Shown here piece after piece: positions 25,470-31,377 of a DNA stretch of 64,000 bases (the stretch's first letter is position 1; every line of letters begins with the position of its first letter). Where the stretch lies: NCBI GenBank assembly GCA_022841915.1, contig JALHQN010000014.1, positions 1-64,000 on the forward strand. Direction: 5' to 3'. The stretch is from Burkholderiales bacterium. GTDB taxonomy: Bacteria; Pseudomonadota; Gammaproteobacteria; Burkholderiales; WYBJ01. Position numbers and translations under genes: made by a program. The notes below the pieces were generated by a model. That model was not told the origin of the DNA. It saw only the letters and a program-made list of their open reading frames with translations, and ran no database searches.

Positions 25470-26455
25470 TTACTCCGCCGTGATCTTCGCGTCGCGCACG
25501 ACCTTGAGCCAGCGCTCCCGCTCTTTCTGGACGAACCGGCCGAACTCGGCGGGCGTCGAGCCGGCGGGCTCGGCGCCTTGCGCCTCGAGCACACGCGCGA
25601 CATCGGGTGTCCGCAGCTTGGCGGCGATGGCCTTGCTCAGCTTGTCGATCACCGCCGGCGGCGTGCCGGCCGGCGCGAACATGCCCTGCCACAGGTCGAT
25701 ATCCACGCTCGGATATCCGGCCTCGGCGAAGGTCGGAATGTCCGGGGCTGCATTCATGCGCTTGTTGCCGGTGACCGCCAGCCCGGTCACCTTGCCGCTC
25801 TTGGTCATCGGGATCAATGCCAGCGCGTTGGTGAGAAACACCTGCACTTGACCGGAAATCAGCGCCAGCGTGCCAGGCCCGCTGCCTTTGTACGGCACGT
25901 GGACGATGTCGATCCCAGCCTCGCGCTTGAGCAATTCCGTGGCGAGGTGCTGAATCCCGCCCACGCCGCCGGACGCATAGCTGAGCTTACCCGGATGAGC
26001 CTTGGCATGAGCGACGAACTCGCGCAGGTTCTTCACCGGCAGCGACGGATGGACGCCCAGCATGCTGGTGCCGTTGGCCATCAGGCTCACTGGAGCGAAG
26101 TCCTTCACCGGATTGAAGGCCACCTTGCGCGCGAGGTGCGCGGACATCATGTGGCCGACGTTGAACACGATCACCGTGTATCCGTCCGCAGGTGCCTTGG
26201 CCACCAATTCCATCGCGATCAGGCCCGTGGCGCCCACCCGATTGTCGACCACGATCGGTTGCCCCATTCCTCGCTCAGTTTCTGCGCCACCAGTCGCGCC
26301 ATGAAATCCGTGCCGCCGCCGGGCGCGACGCCCACCAGAAACCGAATGGGCTTGGTCGGAAAATTGGTCGCCAGCGCGCTGCCGGCAACGCCAAGGGATG
26401 CGATAGCCAGCAGGCCGCCCAGCCCTCCGAAAATACGATGCTTCATTGACGCCAT
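25470..26455 (-). pseudogene. Bug-family receptor gene with a one-base frameshift
   Basis: A full Bug gene is present but split over two frames. The start at 26455 (AGGAGG four bases upstream) gives a signal peptide and 'FPTKPIRFLVGVAPGGGTDF' up to 'LVAQKLSEE'. From about 26265 the other frame continues 'GQPIVVDNRVGATGLIAME' to the normal C-terminus 'LKVVRDAKITAE'. One base is missing in 'gaatgggg' (26264-26271): restoring it gives the family reading KLSEE-x-GQPIVVDNR. Everything else is intact, so the mutation is recent or is a sequence error. It heads the operon with leuC and leuD. Confidence 0.8.
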
Positions 26456-26938: not shown

Positions 26939-27985
26939 TTGACGGTACTGGTCTCCAACCGGATTCGCGCCCCGCGCGATATGCGTGCCGTGTTCGACGA
27001 CATGGAGCGGCGCGGCTTCACCGACGGCCTGCCGGTCATCCCGCCGACCGAGGAGCGCGTCCACGAAATGCTCGACTACGTCGGCATGGCGCCTGACGAA
27101 CTGATCGCCGTCGTGCCGCCCGAGGGCGGACCGGCCACCGCCGAAAAGGTGGCGATCAACGCGGTCATGGCAGGCTGCCGCCCCGAATACATGCCGGTCG
27201 TGGTCGCCGCGGTGAGAGCCGTGACGCAGCCCCAGTTCAACCTGCTCGGCATCCAGACCACCACCAATCCGGTGGCACCGGTGCTCGTCGTCAACGGTCC
27301 GGTGCGCGAGCGCATCGGCATCCACTCGCGGCGCGGCTGCCTCGGGCCGGGGTTTCGCGCCAATGCCACGATCGGGCGTGCCCTGCGGCTCGTGATGCTC
27401 AACATCGGCGGCTGCCCGCCCGGCGACGTCGACAAGGCGATCCATGGCATGCCCGGAAAATTCACGTTCTGCTTCGGCGAATTGGAAGAGGAAAGCCCCT
27501 GGCCATCGCTGCACGAAGAGCAGGGCTTTCGCAAGGAGCAGAGCACCGTCACCGCCTTCGGAGGCCAAGGCACGCAGAACCTCTACGCCGCCATGCTCGA
27601 TCCGGAGCACATCGTGCACATGCTCGCCGATGGCATGCGCGTCTACGGCAACAACGGCTACCTGCGTGCCGTGGGCTCGCCCCTCGTGATCATGAGCCCC
27701 GGCCATGCGCGTATATTCGCCGACCACGGCTGGGACAAGGCGAGGCTGCGCGTCGAGCTCTTCGAGCGGACCAAGATCCCGCGCGCCTACATACCGAGCG
27801 CACCACAGCTCTCCAAGCCGGTGTATTCGGACTACCCGCCGGAGGCGATGTGCCAGCTGTGCAATGCCCCGGAGGACATCAGGATCGTCGTCGCCGGCGG
27901 CCCCGAGGCCTACCACATCACCTACGTCCCGAGCTTCGGCACGACCGTCCCGACGACAGCGGAGATCGCGGTGGTCGTCGCATAA
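26939..27985 (+). CDS. Conserved companion protein of the UGSC selenoprotein
   Basis: The 348-residue cytoplasmic protein starts at TTG 26939: AGGAGG lies at 26926-26931 with seven-base spacing, and family-like sequence begins 'LVSNRIRAPRDMRAVFDDME'. It has no signal peptide. Notable segments are 'VIPPTEERVHEMLDYVGM', 'ATIGRALRLVMLNIGGCPPG', and a C-terminal Cys305-X-X-Cys308 ('CQLC'). I do not know its biochemical function. Its stop is only 11 bases from the ATG of the UGSC selenoprotein. The two are probably co-translated partners, and the CxxC could exchange electrons with the Sec-X-X-Cys site. Confidence 0.8.
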   Translation: MTVLVSNRIRAPRDMRAVFDDMERRGFTDGLPVIPPTEERVHEMLDYVGMAPDELIAVVPPEGGPATAEKVAINAVMAGCRPEYMPVVVAAVRAVTQPQFNLLGIQTTTNPVAPVLVVNGPVRERIGIHSRRGCLGPGFRANATIGRALRLVMLNIGGCPPGDVDKAIHGMPGKFTFCFGELEEESPWPSLHEEQGFRKEQSTVTAFGGQGTQNLYAAMLDPEHIVHMLADGMRVYGNNGYLRAVGSPLVIMSPGHARIFADHGWDKARLRVELFERTKIPRAYIPSAPQLSKPVYSDYPPEAMCQLCNAPEDIRIVVAGGPEAYHITYVPSFGTTVPTTAEIAVVVA

Positions 27986-27996
27986 GGAGATCGTTC

Positions 27997-28548
27997 ATGA
28001 ACACGCCCCCGATCGAGCAAACGCTGGTGTATCTGGATCCCGTCAGCCCGAATACCGAACGCAAGCTCTTCGTGCCGGCGGTCAGCGAACTGGCAGGCAA
28101 GCGCATCGCGTTCGTCAACAACGGCTGGCTCAGCTTCACCCGCATCGGCGAGCACATGGCCACGGTGCTCGAACGACGCTTCGGCATCGCCTCCTTCACC
28201 ACGTACGCGATACCGACCTCCTGCGCGCCGCCCGAGGGCCTGCTGGCGCAGATCGCCAGCGAGGCCGATGCGGCCATCGTGGGCATGGCCAATTGAGGCT
28301 CCTGCACGTCGTGGAGTGTCCACGACACGGCTCAACTGGTGAAGCTGGGGCTGCCGGCTGTTGTGATCGCCACCGGGCAGTTCGAGAAGCTCGCTCGGGT
28401 CATCATGCGCTCGCAGCGGGTGCCCGAATCGATTGCCATCGTAATCGGTCCGAACACCGAGTTCGTGCCGCCGCAGACCCTGGAGAAAATCGCCGACGAA
28501 GTGATCGAACAAGCGGTCAAGCGCCTGTCGGAGGTCCATAGGGGCTGA
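27997..28548 (+). CDS. UGSC-family selenoprotein (in-frame TGA read as selenocysteine)
   Basis: Reading from ATG 27997 (AAGGAGA upstream), the frame meets TGA at 28294-28296 and then continues without a break to TGA at 28546. Read through, the product is 183 residues with Sec100-Gly-Ser-Cys103 in 'VGMAN-U-GSCTSWSVHDTAQL'. This is the motif that names the UGSC (seleno)protein family, in which other members carry Cys (CGSC). The part after the TGA has normal composition and matches the fold: 'LVKLGLPAVVIATGQFEKLA' and 'IVIGPNTEFVP'. Sec-X-X-Cys suggests a thiol/selenol redox role. Conventional gene callers would end it at residue 99 or call it a pseudogene. Confidence 0.9.
28297..28330 (+). promoter_or_regulatory. 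SECIS-like hairpin directly after the selenocysteine TGA
   Basis: GTCGTGGA (28308-28315) pairs perfectly with TCCACGAC (28319-28326) around the loop GTG. The loop begins 20 bases after the TGA and its first base is G. These features agree with the bacterial SECIS description: a stem-loop about 16-37 bases downstream with a G among the first loop bases, bound by SelB. The hairpin lies within coding sequence, as in formate dehydrogenase genes. Confidence 0.8.
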
Positions 28549-29225: not shown

Positions 29226-30194
29226 ATGGAAATCACACAGCAAGCCCAATCGAGCGCCGCAGCCACTCGGCCAACCCCGGTAGCGAATACGTTGCTCGGT
29301 CTGCAGATCGTGCCGACCGGCGCAGCGGTCGGCGCCGAAGTGCGTGGCATCGATCTCTCCCAACCCATACCGGACGACGTCGCACGAGCGCTGCGCGACG
29401 CCTGGTCCCAGTACCTCGTCCTGCTCTTCCGCGATCAGGAAATGACGCCCGAGCAATACCTTCGGGCGGCGAGCATTTTCGGCCGGCCGCAAGTGGGCGC
29501 TGCGCGCGCCTACTTCGAGAAGACCGGCACCCTCGATAGCATGCACACCCTGCCGGTCCCCGAGATCTCCATCCTTTCGAACCTGGACAGCCAGGGCAAC
29601 CCGGTGATGGAGAACGCAGGGCTGGGCAGCATGGAAGTCGTTTGGCATTCCGACAATTCCTACATCGAGGAGCCGCCGGCAGGCAGTACTCTGTATTCGC
29701 GCGAGATTCCGAACGACAGCACCGGCAAGACGTCGTTCAACAACCAGTATCTCGCCTATGACGAAATGCCGCCCGACTTGAAGAAGGCCATCGAGGGCAA
29801 GCGTTCGAAGCAGGATGCGAGCCGCAACTCCGCGGGCACCTTGCGGCCGGGCGTGAAGAAGCCGGAAAAACCGGAAGATGTCCCCGGCCCCATGCACCCG
29901 ATGGTGCGCAAGCACCCGGTCACAGGGCGCAATGCGCTCTACCTCGGTCGACGGCGCGTGTTCCCCTCGCAGTTCATCGAGGGGCTCGCTCAGGAAGAGA
30001 GCGAAAAGCTGCTCGACCGGATCTGGGCGCACGCGACGCAGCCGAAGTATGCCTGGACCCACGTCTGGCGCGTCGGCGACATGCTCGTTTGGGACAACCG
30101 CTGTGCCATGCACTATCGCGAGCCGGTCAACTCCACGCAGCGCCGTGTCATGTGGCGCAGCCAGTTCCAAGGCGAAAAGGTCCTCGCAGGGTAA
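29226..30194 (+). CDS. TauD/TfdA-family Fe(II)/2-oxoglutarate dioxygenase (second paralogue)
   Basis: The 322-residue protein has His141-X-Asp143 in 'VVWHSDNSYIEEPP', distal His296 in 'DNRCAMHYREP' and Arg307 for 2-oxoglutarate. Overall it resembles the dioxygenase at 22251-23210, so the two are likely paralogues with related substrates. The ATG at 29226 was preferred to the open frame from 29157. It is followed by a Bug receptor and a GST on the same strand, with gaps of 208 and 97 bases, suggesting uptake and oxidative cleavage of one compound class. Confidence 0.92.
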   Translation: MEITQQAQSSAAATRPTPVANTLLGLQIVPTGAAVGAEVRGIDLSQPIPDDVARALRDAWSQYLVLLFRDQEMTPEQYLRAASIFGRPQVGAARAYFEKTGTLDSMHTLPVPEISILSNLDSQGNPVMENAGLGSMEVVWHSDNSYIEEPPAGSTLYSREIPNDSTGKTSFNNQYLAYDEMPPDLKKAIEGKRSKQDASRNSAGTLRPGVKKPEKPEDVPGPMHPMVRKHPVTGRNALYLGRRRVFPSQFIEGLAQEESEKLLDRIWAHATQPKYAWTHVWRVGDMLVWDNRCAMHYREPVNSTQRRVMWRSQFQGEKVLAG

Positions 30195-30402: not shown

Positions 30403-31377
30403 ATGCGTATCTACCACTGGCCGTTGGCCGCTGTCATCGCTTGCACAGCTGTATCCATCCCATCTGTCCAGGCGGCCGACGCCTACCCGACACGGCCCGT
30501 CCGGTTCATCATCCCGTTCGCGCCCGGCGGCAGCAACGACACCATCGCCCGCTTGTTCGCACAGCATCTGACCGAGCATCTCGGCCAACCGGTCGTCGTC
30601 GACAATCGATCCGGCGCCGGCAGTCTCGTGGGCAACGAAATCGCGGCCAAATCGCAGCCCGACGGCCATACGATCGTCATCATCTCAGCCTCGTTTGCAT
30701 TCAGCTCCGCACTCTACAAGAAACTGCCCTACGATCCCGTCAAATCGTTCTCCCATGTTGCGAAGATCGCCACCGGCCCCGTCGTATTGGCGGTCAATCC
30801 GTCGTTGCCGGCCAAAACGGTCAAGGAACTGATCGCCCTGGCGACGGCGAAGCCTGGGCAGCTCAACTTCGCGAGCTCGGGCGTGGGCAGCGCGCAGCAT
30901 CTGGGCATGGAATTGCTCAAGACGCTGGTCAAGATCGACGTCACCCACGTCCCATTCAAGGGCGGCGGTCCGGCGACGCTCAGTGTCATGACCGGCGACT
31001 CGCACATCTCGATCGGGTCGGTGATATCGCTGATTCCTCACATCCGGTCGGGCAAGCTGCGGGCGCTGGCCACGGGCGGACTCAAGCGCAGCAGCGCCCT
31101 GCCTGATTTGCCGACCATCGACGAAGCCGGTGTCAAGGGCTACGAGGCGTCGAACTGGTGGGGCGTCCTCGCCCCCGCGAAGACGCCCCAAAGCGTCATC
31201 ACGCGCCTGGACAGCGAGATCAAGACCATCGTCGCAAAGGAAGCCGTGGCCAAGCGCCTATCCAACGACGGCGCGGAGCCGGACTATCTGAGCCAGCAAA
31301 CCTTCGCCGACTTCGTCGCCAAGGAAAGAGCCAAATGGACCCAGGTCGTCAGAGCCGCAGGCATCACGCCGCAGTAA
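30403..31377 (+). CDS. Bug-family tripartite tricarboxylate receptor protein
   Basis: The 324-residue periplasmic binding protein has a signal peptide ending 'SIPSVQAAD', then 'YPTRPVRFIIPFAPGGSNDT', 'VVVDNRSGAGSLVGNEIAAK', 'LPYDPVKSFSHVAKI' and 'VTHVPFKGGGPATLSVMTG'. This is a complete Bug protein. GAGGAG lies six bases before the ATG. It probably binds the acid that is the substrate of the adjacent dioxygenase; this is inferred from context only. Confidence 0.93.
   Translation: MRIYHWPLAAVIACTAVSIPSVQAADAYPTRPVRFIIPFAPGGSNDTIARLFAQHLTEHLGQPVVVDNRSGAGSLVGNEIAAKSQPDGHTIVIISASFAFSSALYKKLPYDPVKSFSHVAKIATGPVVLAVNPSLPAKTVKELIALATAKPGQLNFASSGVGSAQHLGMELLKTLVKIDVTHVPFKGGGPATLSVMTGDSHISIGSVISLIPHIRSGKLRALATGGLKRSSALPDLPTIDEAGVKGYEASNWWGVLAPAKTPQSVITRLDSEIKTIVAKEAVAKRLSNDGAEPDYLSQQTFADFVAKERAKWTQVVRAAGITPQ

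Follow-up and report, generated by a model that had tools for sequence, protein, structure and literature searches.

A UGSC-family selenoprotein gene and its partner in a Burkholderiales genome: a duplicated two-component system with a remote relation to GrdB/PrdB

The UGSC family (PF24696, NF041046; GOS survey 2008, PMC2398784) was counted in the GOS survey among the commonest selenoprotein families of aquatic metagenomes (255 Sec against 21 Cys homologues), and a fusion of the UGSC domain to an unnamed conserved domain (UGSC/Unknown_1) was recorded there (PMC2398784). Its function is placed among the largely uncharacterised selenoproteins in a 2026 review (PMC13188914), and one table row of a further study (26 and 33, here taken as organisms and genes) corresponds to approximately one UGSC gene per genome (PMC5029168). 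All statements on cited papers, here and below, are limited to the parts of them that were accessible; within those parts, none of the three accounts describes an expanded two-component family, unlike what is found in the genome studied here. The second relevant system is GrdB/PrdB (PF07355), the Sec subunits of glycine, sarcosine, betaine and D-proline reductase. Enzymes of this type carry out reductive cleavage of C-N bonds (PMC13188914), and related glycine-reductase genes have been linked to the reduction of monofluoroacetate (PMC10838667). The UGSC proteins resemble GrdB/PrdB in an aligned UxxC motif within a shared profile region and in the association with a second subunit, with which GrdB/PrdB also work. 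They differ in being shorter, in lacking a direct Pfam match to that family, in having a regular partner that does not match PF09338, and in being located beside TctC, TauD and other catabolic genes instead of in a Stickland operon. As far as searched, the gene described here joins a known family, and the two-component, GrdB/PrdB-related and massively duplicated system that surrounds it has not been described.

The window (the whole stretch of 64 kb that was analysed) contains a UGSC-family gene on the + strand (27997..28548, terminal TGA included) that encodes 183 amino acids with a predicted Sec at residue 100. It starts with ATG at 27997 downstream of an AAGGAG sequence, passes through an in-frame UGA at 28294..28296 (+ strand) and stops with TGA at 28546-28548. 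The sequence-only reading had proposed an open frame running from its start through the internal TGA to a normal stop, with one protein family on both sides of the TGA and the codon at the position where that family carries Sec or Cys, and the follow-up bears out each part: the gene is a single reading frame, PF24696 aligns with residues 13-178 on both sides of the TGA (101.3 bits, curated cut-off 25 bits), and an alignment with 29 relatives puts the UGA at the Sec of the U-G-S-C motif. The proposed comparison with CGSC homologues agrees, with one Cys homologue (L092) aligning at the Sec position and two more Cys members found among the loci from named genomes. Among all UGSC reading frames with a readable motif from the host, its relatives and the named loci, 124 out of 127 carry UGA and three carry Cys; this count omits matches with an unreadable motif or undetermined bases (7 out of 90 in the named loci). 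Membership of the window gene in the family rests on the Pfam score and the shared Sec motif. The NCBIfam equivalog model NF041046 gives only 77.1 bits, under its curated cut-off of 125, so that a pipeline using that model would probably leave the protein unnamed, and mechanical ORF finding stops the frame at 28296. A scan of the window for further genes with UGA read-through returned an empty list, but the scan also missed the known UGSC gene and is therefore uninformative.

The host genome (6.21 Mb in 66 contigs, 96% complete) was expected on the sequence-only reading to make selenocysteine, and the search it suggested found the complete set of genes. The selA (C1:633191-634555, 573.8 bits), selB (C1:634630-636525, 434.2 bits) and tRNA-Sec genes (selC, C1:637593-637683, 75 bits, the sole match over the gathering score among the matches listed) lie in a row in one cluster on contig C1 (633191-637683). 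The selD gene is located on contig C28 (17953-18882, 424.4 bits) and contains one in-frame TGA, indicating that the host SelD is probably a selenoprotein itself. No tRNA gene was found within the 64-kb window. PF24696 matches the host genome at 19 places, all above the cut-off and each with exactly one TGA inside, and this repetition in 19 out of 19 places excludes a chance origin of the in-frame TGA. The starts are plausible throughout (18 ATG and one TTG, in L049), and the motif is U-G-[S/T/A/R]-C with U at the same aligned position in all 19. Reading the UGA of the window gene as Sec is thus well supported by sequence comparison; incorporation is inferred and experimental proof is lacking. 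Multiple copies are not confined to the host. Out of 200 genomes of the order, 21 match PF24696 at E <= 0.001 and 19 of these exceed the cut-off; among the matches listed over the cut-off there are at least 146 including those of the host, 142 with one TGA and four with none, no more than 16 places having been scored in each genome. With all places scored, three genomes of the same genus contain 26, 24 and 17 UGSC matches and two genomes of another family contain 18 and 14.

A putative SECIS-type hairpin follows the UGA of the window gene (28308..28326, + strand), with an 8-bp stem and a GTG loop, starting 11 nt past the UGA. It corresponds to the hairpin drawn for the family, which has the same stem length and distance and a three-base loop that mostly starts with GT. 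The eight stem positions are paired in 86 to 113 of 114 distinct sequences, and one stem pair is kept in 110 of the 114 through exchange of G-C and C-G. The exchange is visible in the Val codons at codon +8: where TGG precedes them the codon is GTC in 39 out of 39 cases, and without a preceding TGG it is GTG in 21 out of 21, with a C-G pair in 19 and A.G in two. This covariation at a synonymous position is the strongest sign of the hairpin, as judged from sequences that are related to each other, so that the exchanges do not represent independent events. Folding after the UGA compared with synonymous recodings gave a mean z of -1.17 over 117 distinct sequences (25% at P < 0.05), against mean z values between -0.33 and +0.18 when five control offsets within these genes were used. 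The hairpin of the window gene is not significant alone in this recoding test (z -0.72, P 0.22), and its support comes from the family data and not from its own score. The host copies have a mean z of -0.77 (18 of the 19 tested, one being dropped as a repeated sequence); in five of these 18 (L037 and L050-L053) the signal is absent, with z at or above zero, and in several host copies the minimum-energy fold differs from the drawn hairpin. The three Cys members (z -0.29 to -0.54) show no clear contrast with Sec members of average strength.

Directly upstream of the UGSC gene lies a gene without a Pfam model (26939..27985, + strand), identified with our own gene caller and with an uncertain start at ATG 26939. 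Its stop codon precedes the UGSC start by 11 nt and is overlapped by the Shine-Dalgarno sequence of the UGSC gene. A scan of 57 members of this partner family against Pfam at E up to 10 matched no model, PF09338 included. The host genome contains 20 copies of the partner, the window copy included, and each of the 19 UGSC genes has one: eight are fused, ten are next door and one is clustered at 3.4 kb (L037). One further partner gene (L063 1429-2502, C13:102003) has no UGSC gene within 1.5 kb on either side. The partner served as query to retrieve 80 loci from named genomes, and UGSC is present in 72 of these; among the remaining eight, one carries a piece of UGSC at its edge (L153) and seven have none, some of them being short stretches. 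The order of the two genes is not fixed in 91 split pairs (47 partner-UGSC and 44 UGSC-partner), and the gap is at most 100 nt in 72 of them. These pairs exclude fusions, and five out of 96 single UGSC genes, most of them on truncated loci, remained unpaired. Distances in the trees of the two proteins show a correlation of 0.80 over the 91 split pairs (<=0.15 in 1000 permutations) and of 0.83 (P 0.0005) over the ten split pairs of the host, where the correlation cannot reflect species history. It is well supported that UGSC and its partner form a conserved two-component unit and co-evolve; a physical complex is inferred. The domain Unknown_1 of the GOS fusion is probably the same as this partner domain, the alignments not having been compared, and the accessible part of the GOS paper gives no split-gene pairing, coevolution or structure, unlike the present analysis.

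The relation of the UGSC domain to the Stickland reductases is remote, since the Pfam GRDB model (PF07355) gave no match to any of the 30 UGSC members searched with an E limit of 10; two of the 30 match PF09338 (best 0.047). PF07355 matches occur in the order at 18 places in 15 of the 200 genomes, and reading through them gives UGA at a U-P-x-C motif in 14, Cys in three and no motif in one. The host itself carries such a PrdB/GrdB-like gene (L110 1396-2619, C3:349683), whose UGA lies at U-P-N-C and whose C-terminus is extended by a long stretch; genes of this form are found in relatives as well. A PrdB-like profile built from 14 proteins (11 Sec and three Cys) was aligned with the UGSC profile by hhalign at a probability of 83 (E 8.9e-6), with the Sec column on the Sec column. 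A trimmed repeat scored 42.7, compared with at most 20.2 in 60 column shuffles and 10.5 for the reversed profile; it scored 33.1 with the UxxC columns masked, and the unrelated controls gave 13.8 (UGSC against partner) and 23.1 (PrdB-like against partner). We take this as remote homology between UGSC and the Sec domain of GrdB/PrdB, with the UxxC motifs in register, inferred from profiles. Searches of PDB sequences with the UGSC, PrdB-like and partner profiles yielded nothing usable, and the link to GrdB therefore rests on profile comparison without a structure.

The best explanation of these observations, towards which the evidence leans only slightly, is a two-subunit selenoenzyme of the GrdB/PrdB kind that probably cleaves C-X bonds reductively in imported carboxylates; the relation to GrdB/PrdB makes the same type of chemistry the most likely one. 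The UGSC protein would be the Sec subunit and the protein encoded directly upstream, which is fused to it in other copies, its partner. SelB would be recruited by the hairpin past the UGA and Sec inserted at U-G-S-C, a step inferred from the presence of selA, selB, selC and selD, from conservation and from covariation. The selenolate is proposed to attack the substrate and cleave the C-X bond, leaving a selenenyl-sulfide (Se-S) with the Cys three residues past the Sec, which would act as the resolving thiol, and a dithiol may then reduce this bond. The partner may fill the place of the pyruvoyl subunit (GrdE/PrdA) and hold the substrate, presumably a small carboxylate imported via TctC-type binding proteins. 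Paralogues that differ in substrate would explain the 19 pairs of the host and the many more in one Chloroflexota genome. All of these steps are inferences, and the chemistry of UGSC may differ from that of GrdB, as no substrate, product or activity is known.

The fold of the Sec domain bears on a different function, a thioredoxin-type thiol-disulfide oxidoreductase or antioxidant in which U-G-S-C serves as a CxxC-like motif acting on protein or small disulfides or on peroxides. The UxxC motif fits this function, and the GOS paper called the fold likely thioredoxin-like (PMC2398784). The predicted structure argues otherwise. A fused paralogue of the host (L038) was modelled with pLDDT 95.4 and pTM 0.94 from 92 sequences (alignment A7, 92 of 124 rows, the remainder omitted by hand to limit size). 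In this model the Sec domain is an alternating parallel beta-alpha domain in which the Sec (residue 97) immediately precedes the helix coming after the third main strand. The matches listed by structure comparison (Foldseek, VIA) are generic and limited to receiver and Rossmann-like folds, the best being 8s7v_H (Z 11.3, rmsd 4.3 over 139 residues). Neither a thioredoxin nor a GrdB/PrdB entry is among the fold matches listed, an absence that does not exclude a thioredoxin fold. In the model, the Sec domain is a parallel Rossmann-like sheet, which differs from the thioredoxin-like fold suggested earlier without ruling that fold out. The profile similarity also points to PrdB/GrdB, and many divergent copies with partners of their own would better fit a diversity of substrates, an inference that adds to the reasons for regarding the thioredoxin-type function as unlikely.

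The surroundings of the window pair are relevant to the carboxylate substrates proposed for the reductase. The pair is flanked by a divergent set of genes (TctC, LeuC-like, LeuD-like, TauD and amidohydrolase) on one side and by a TauD-TctC-GST set on the other. These include a TctC solute-binding protein gene on the - strand (25470..26267) and, downstream on the + strand, a TauD-type dioxygenase gene (29226..30194) and a second TctC gene (30403..31377). Among the neighbours of the 19 host loci, 20 out of 115 genes encode TctC against an expectation of about 7.5 (P 6e-5). The expectation assumes that all 386 candidate places for TctC are real (150 were scored) and that the genome has 5900 genes. 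The scan covered 115 of 151 listed genes, 36 having been omitted on the basis of position and length while their families were still unknown, and the families taken from it are the 25 most frequent of 137. The host has a great many TctC genes (150 of the 150 scored candidate places match), and this abundance weakens the argument for carboxylate substrates. The window gene and its orthologues L121 to L126 group in a clade with support 99 in a quick tree. A TctC gene lies directly upstream of the partner in L121 to L125 and third upstream in L126, by our own gene calls. The scanned TctC gene of the partial locus L127 is not adjacent, and the one gene scanned in a Chloroflexota relative (L128) is a flavin reductase. 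In Xenophilus azovorans DSM 13620 (L122 1314-7550), the array TctC-partner-UGSC lies next to selA and selB in divergent orientation, and this UGSC match is the only one in the genome. The function of UGSC becomes testable through the remote link to the Stickland Sec reductases, the regular partner and a cultured host whose only copy adjoins selA-selB.

The LeuC/LeuD-type dehydratase genes near the window pair are also compatible with a Sec that binds a metal or metalloid or serves as a non-redox nucleophile, for example in hydrolysis or in lyase chemistry with a fumarase-like partner. The partner does weakly resemble class I fumarases and cyclic amide hydrolases. The window partner modelled alone reached pLDDT 93.7 and pTM 0.93, and in a structure search with the partner (Foldseek, VIA) the best match was the alpha subunit of a class I fumarase at Z 5.3, below a meaningful level; no partner similarity exceeds this value. 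A single Cys of the partner is nearly invariant, so that no Fe-S site is evident, and the Sec-Cys pair is conserved across deep divergence, which leaves the ligand or non-redox role improbable.

The largest number of UGSC genes was found in a Chloroflexota MAG from groundwater (JACPQD01, Chloroflexi bacterium NC_groundwater_644_Ag_B-0.1um_60_123, 5.0 Mb, the genome of L129), for which no values of completeness and contamination were given. All 150 scored places (of 208 candidates) exceed the PF24696 cut-off; at least 146 of these UGSC matches have at least one TGA inside and four have none. A profile of our own resolved the 150 places into 161 domains, 155 with U at UGxC, one with two UGA codons (UGTU, located in L241) and five with neither U nor C. 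The last are paralogues in L241, L252, L257, L266 and L269 (with GGSN, SGVY and similar in place of the motif) and are perhaps non-catalytic. No two of the domains are 95% or more identical, nine have their closest relative at 80% identity or above, and best identities have a median of 69%; with this divergence, the count is not explained by duplicated contigs or by strain copies that are nearly identical. When further stretches were added there were 169 distinct domains, 163 of them with a U motif, and 134 pass a stricter position filter. The hairpin is less regular in this MAG: 47 of the 60 Val cases have the covarying stem pair, and at several further positions of the stem the paired share of the 155 lies only between one third and two thirds, suggesting that the hairpin there is looser or built differently. 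Neither selA nor selB (sought by tblastn, host proteins as queries) nor tRNA-Sec (ARAGORN) was found in the approximately 2 of 5.0 Mb that were read; the sole selB-like match in this part is IF-2 by its translation. UGA also serves as the ordinary terminal stop in this MAG and is present in none of 99 partner domains, and since UGA is likewise the terminal stop of many of the UGSC genes that have one inside, a genome-wide reassignment of UGA can practically be set aside together with a true stop at 28296, where mechanical ORF finding ends the frame, followed by a decaying remnant, given that the downstream half is kept in 19 out of 19 host copies and the hairpin co-varies across the family.

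The largest bacterial selenoproteomes in the accessible part of PMC13188914 comprise 57 genes and, in a Methylomirabilota MAG, 63 genes. The UGSC genes with internal UGA in JACPQD01 number at least 146, far above the published 63, with sel genes not found in the part read. No report of UGSC expansions of this kind was found in the open literature; most subscription papers and all preprints were outside the search. Ordinary annotation cuts UGSC genes at the UGA, and estimates of selenoproteome size would change for this reason. With 14 to more than 140 copies per genome, selenium would rank among the major cofactors of catabolism in some bacteria of lakes and groundwater. It remains a tentative proposal, for which the evidence falls somewhat short, that UGSC and its partner represent a separate class of selenium-dependent catabolic reductases in which a Sec domain of the GrdB/PrdB type works with a novel partner in substrate-specific duplicated sets, and that they account for the largest selenoproteomes known in some Chloroflexota.

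By the labels of the records, UGSC genes are found in Betaproteobacteria, Chloroflexota (SAR202 and Dehalococcoidia), Rokubacteria, Binatia, Nitrospinota, Myxococcota, Gemmatimonadota, a haloarchaeon and others. The 90 UGSC matches in the loci from named genomes consist of 81 with U, two with C (Natrialba asiatica and one Binatia MAG) and seven undetermined. Three of the loci with UGSC (L132, L143 and L197) are labelled Bordetella parapertussis; they come from MAGs with environmental-looking isolate names, and the species label seems doubtful.
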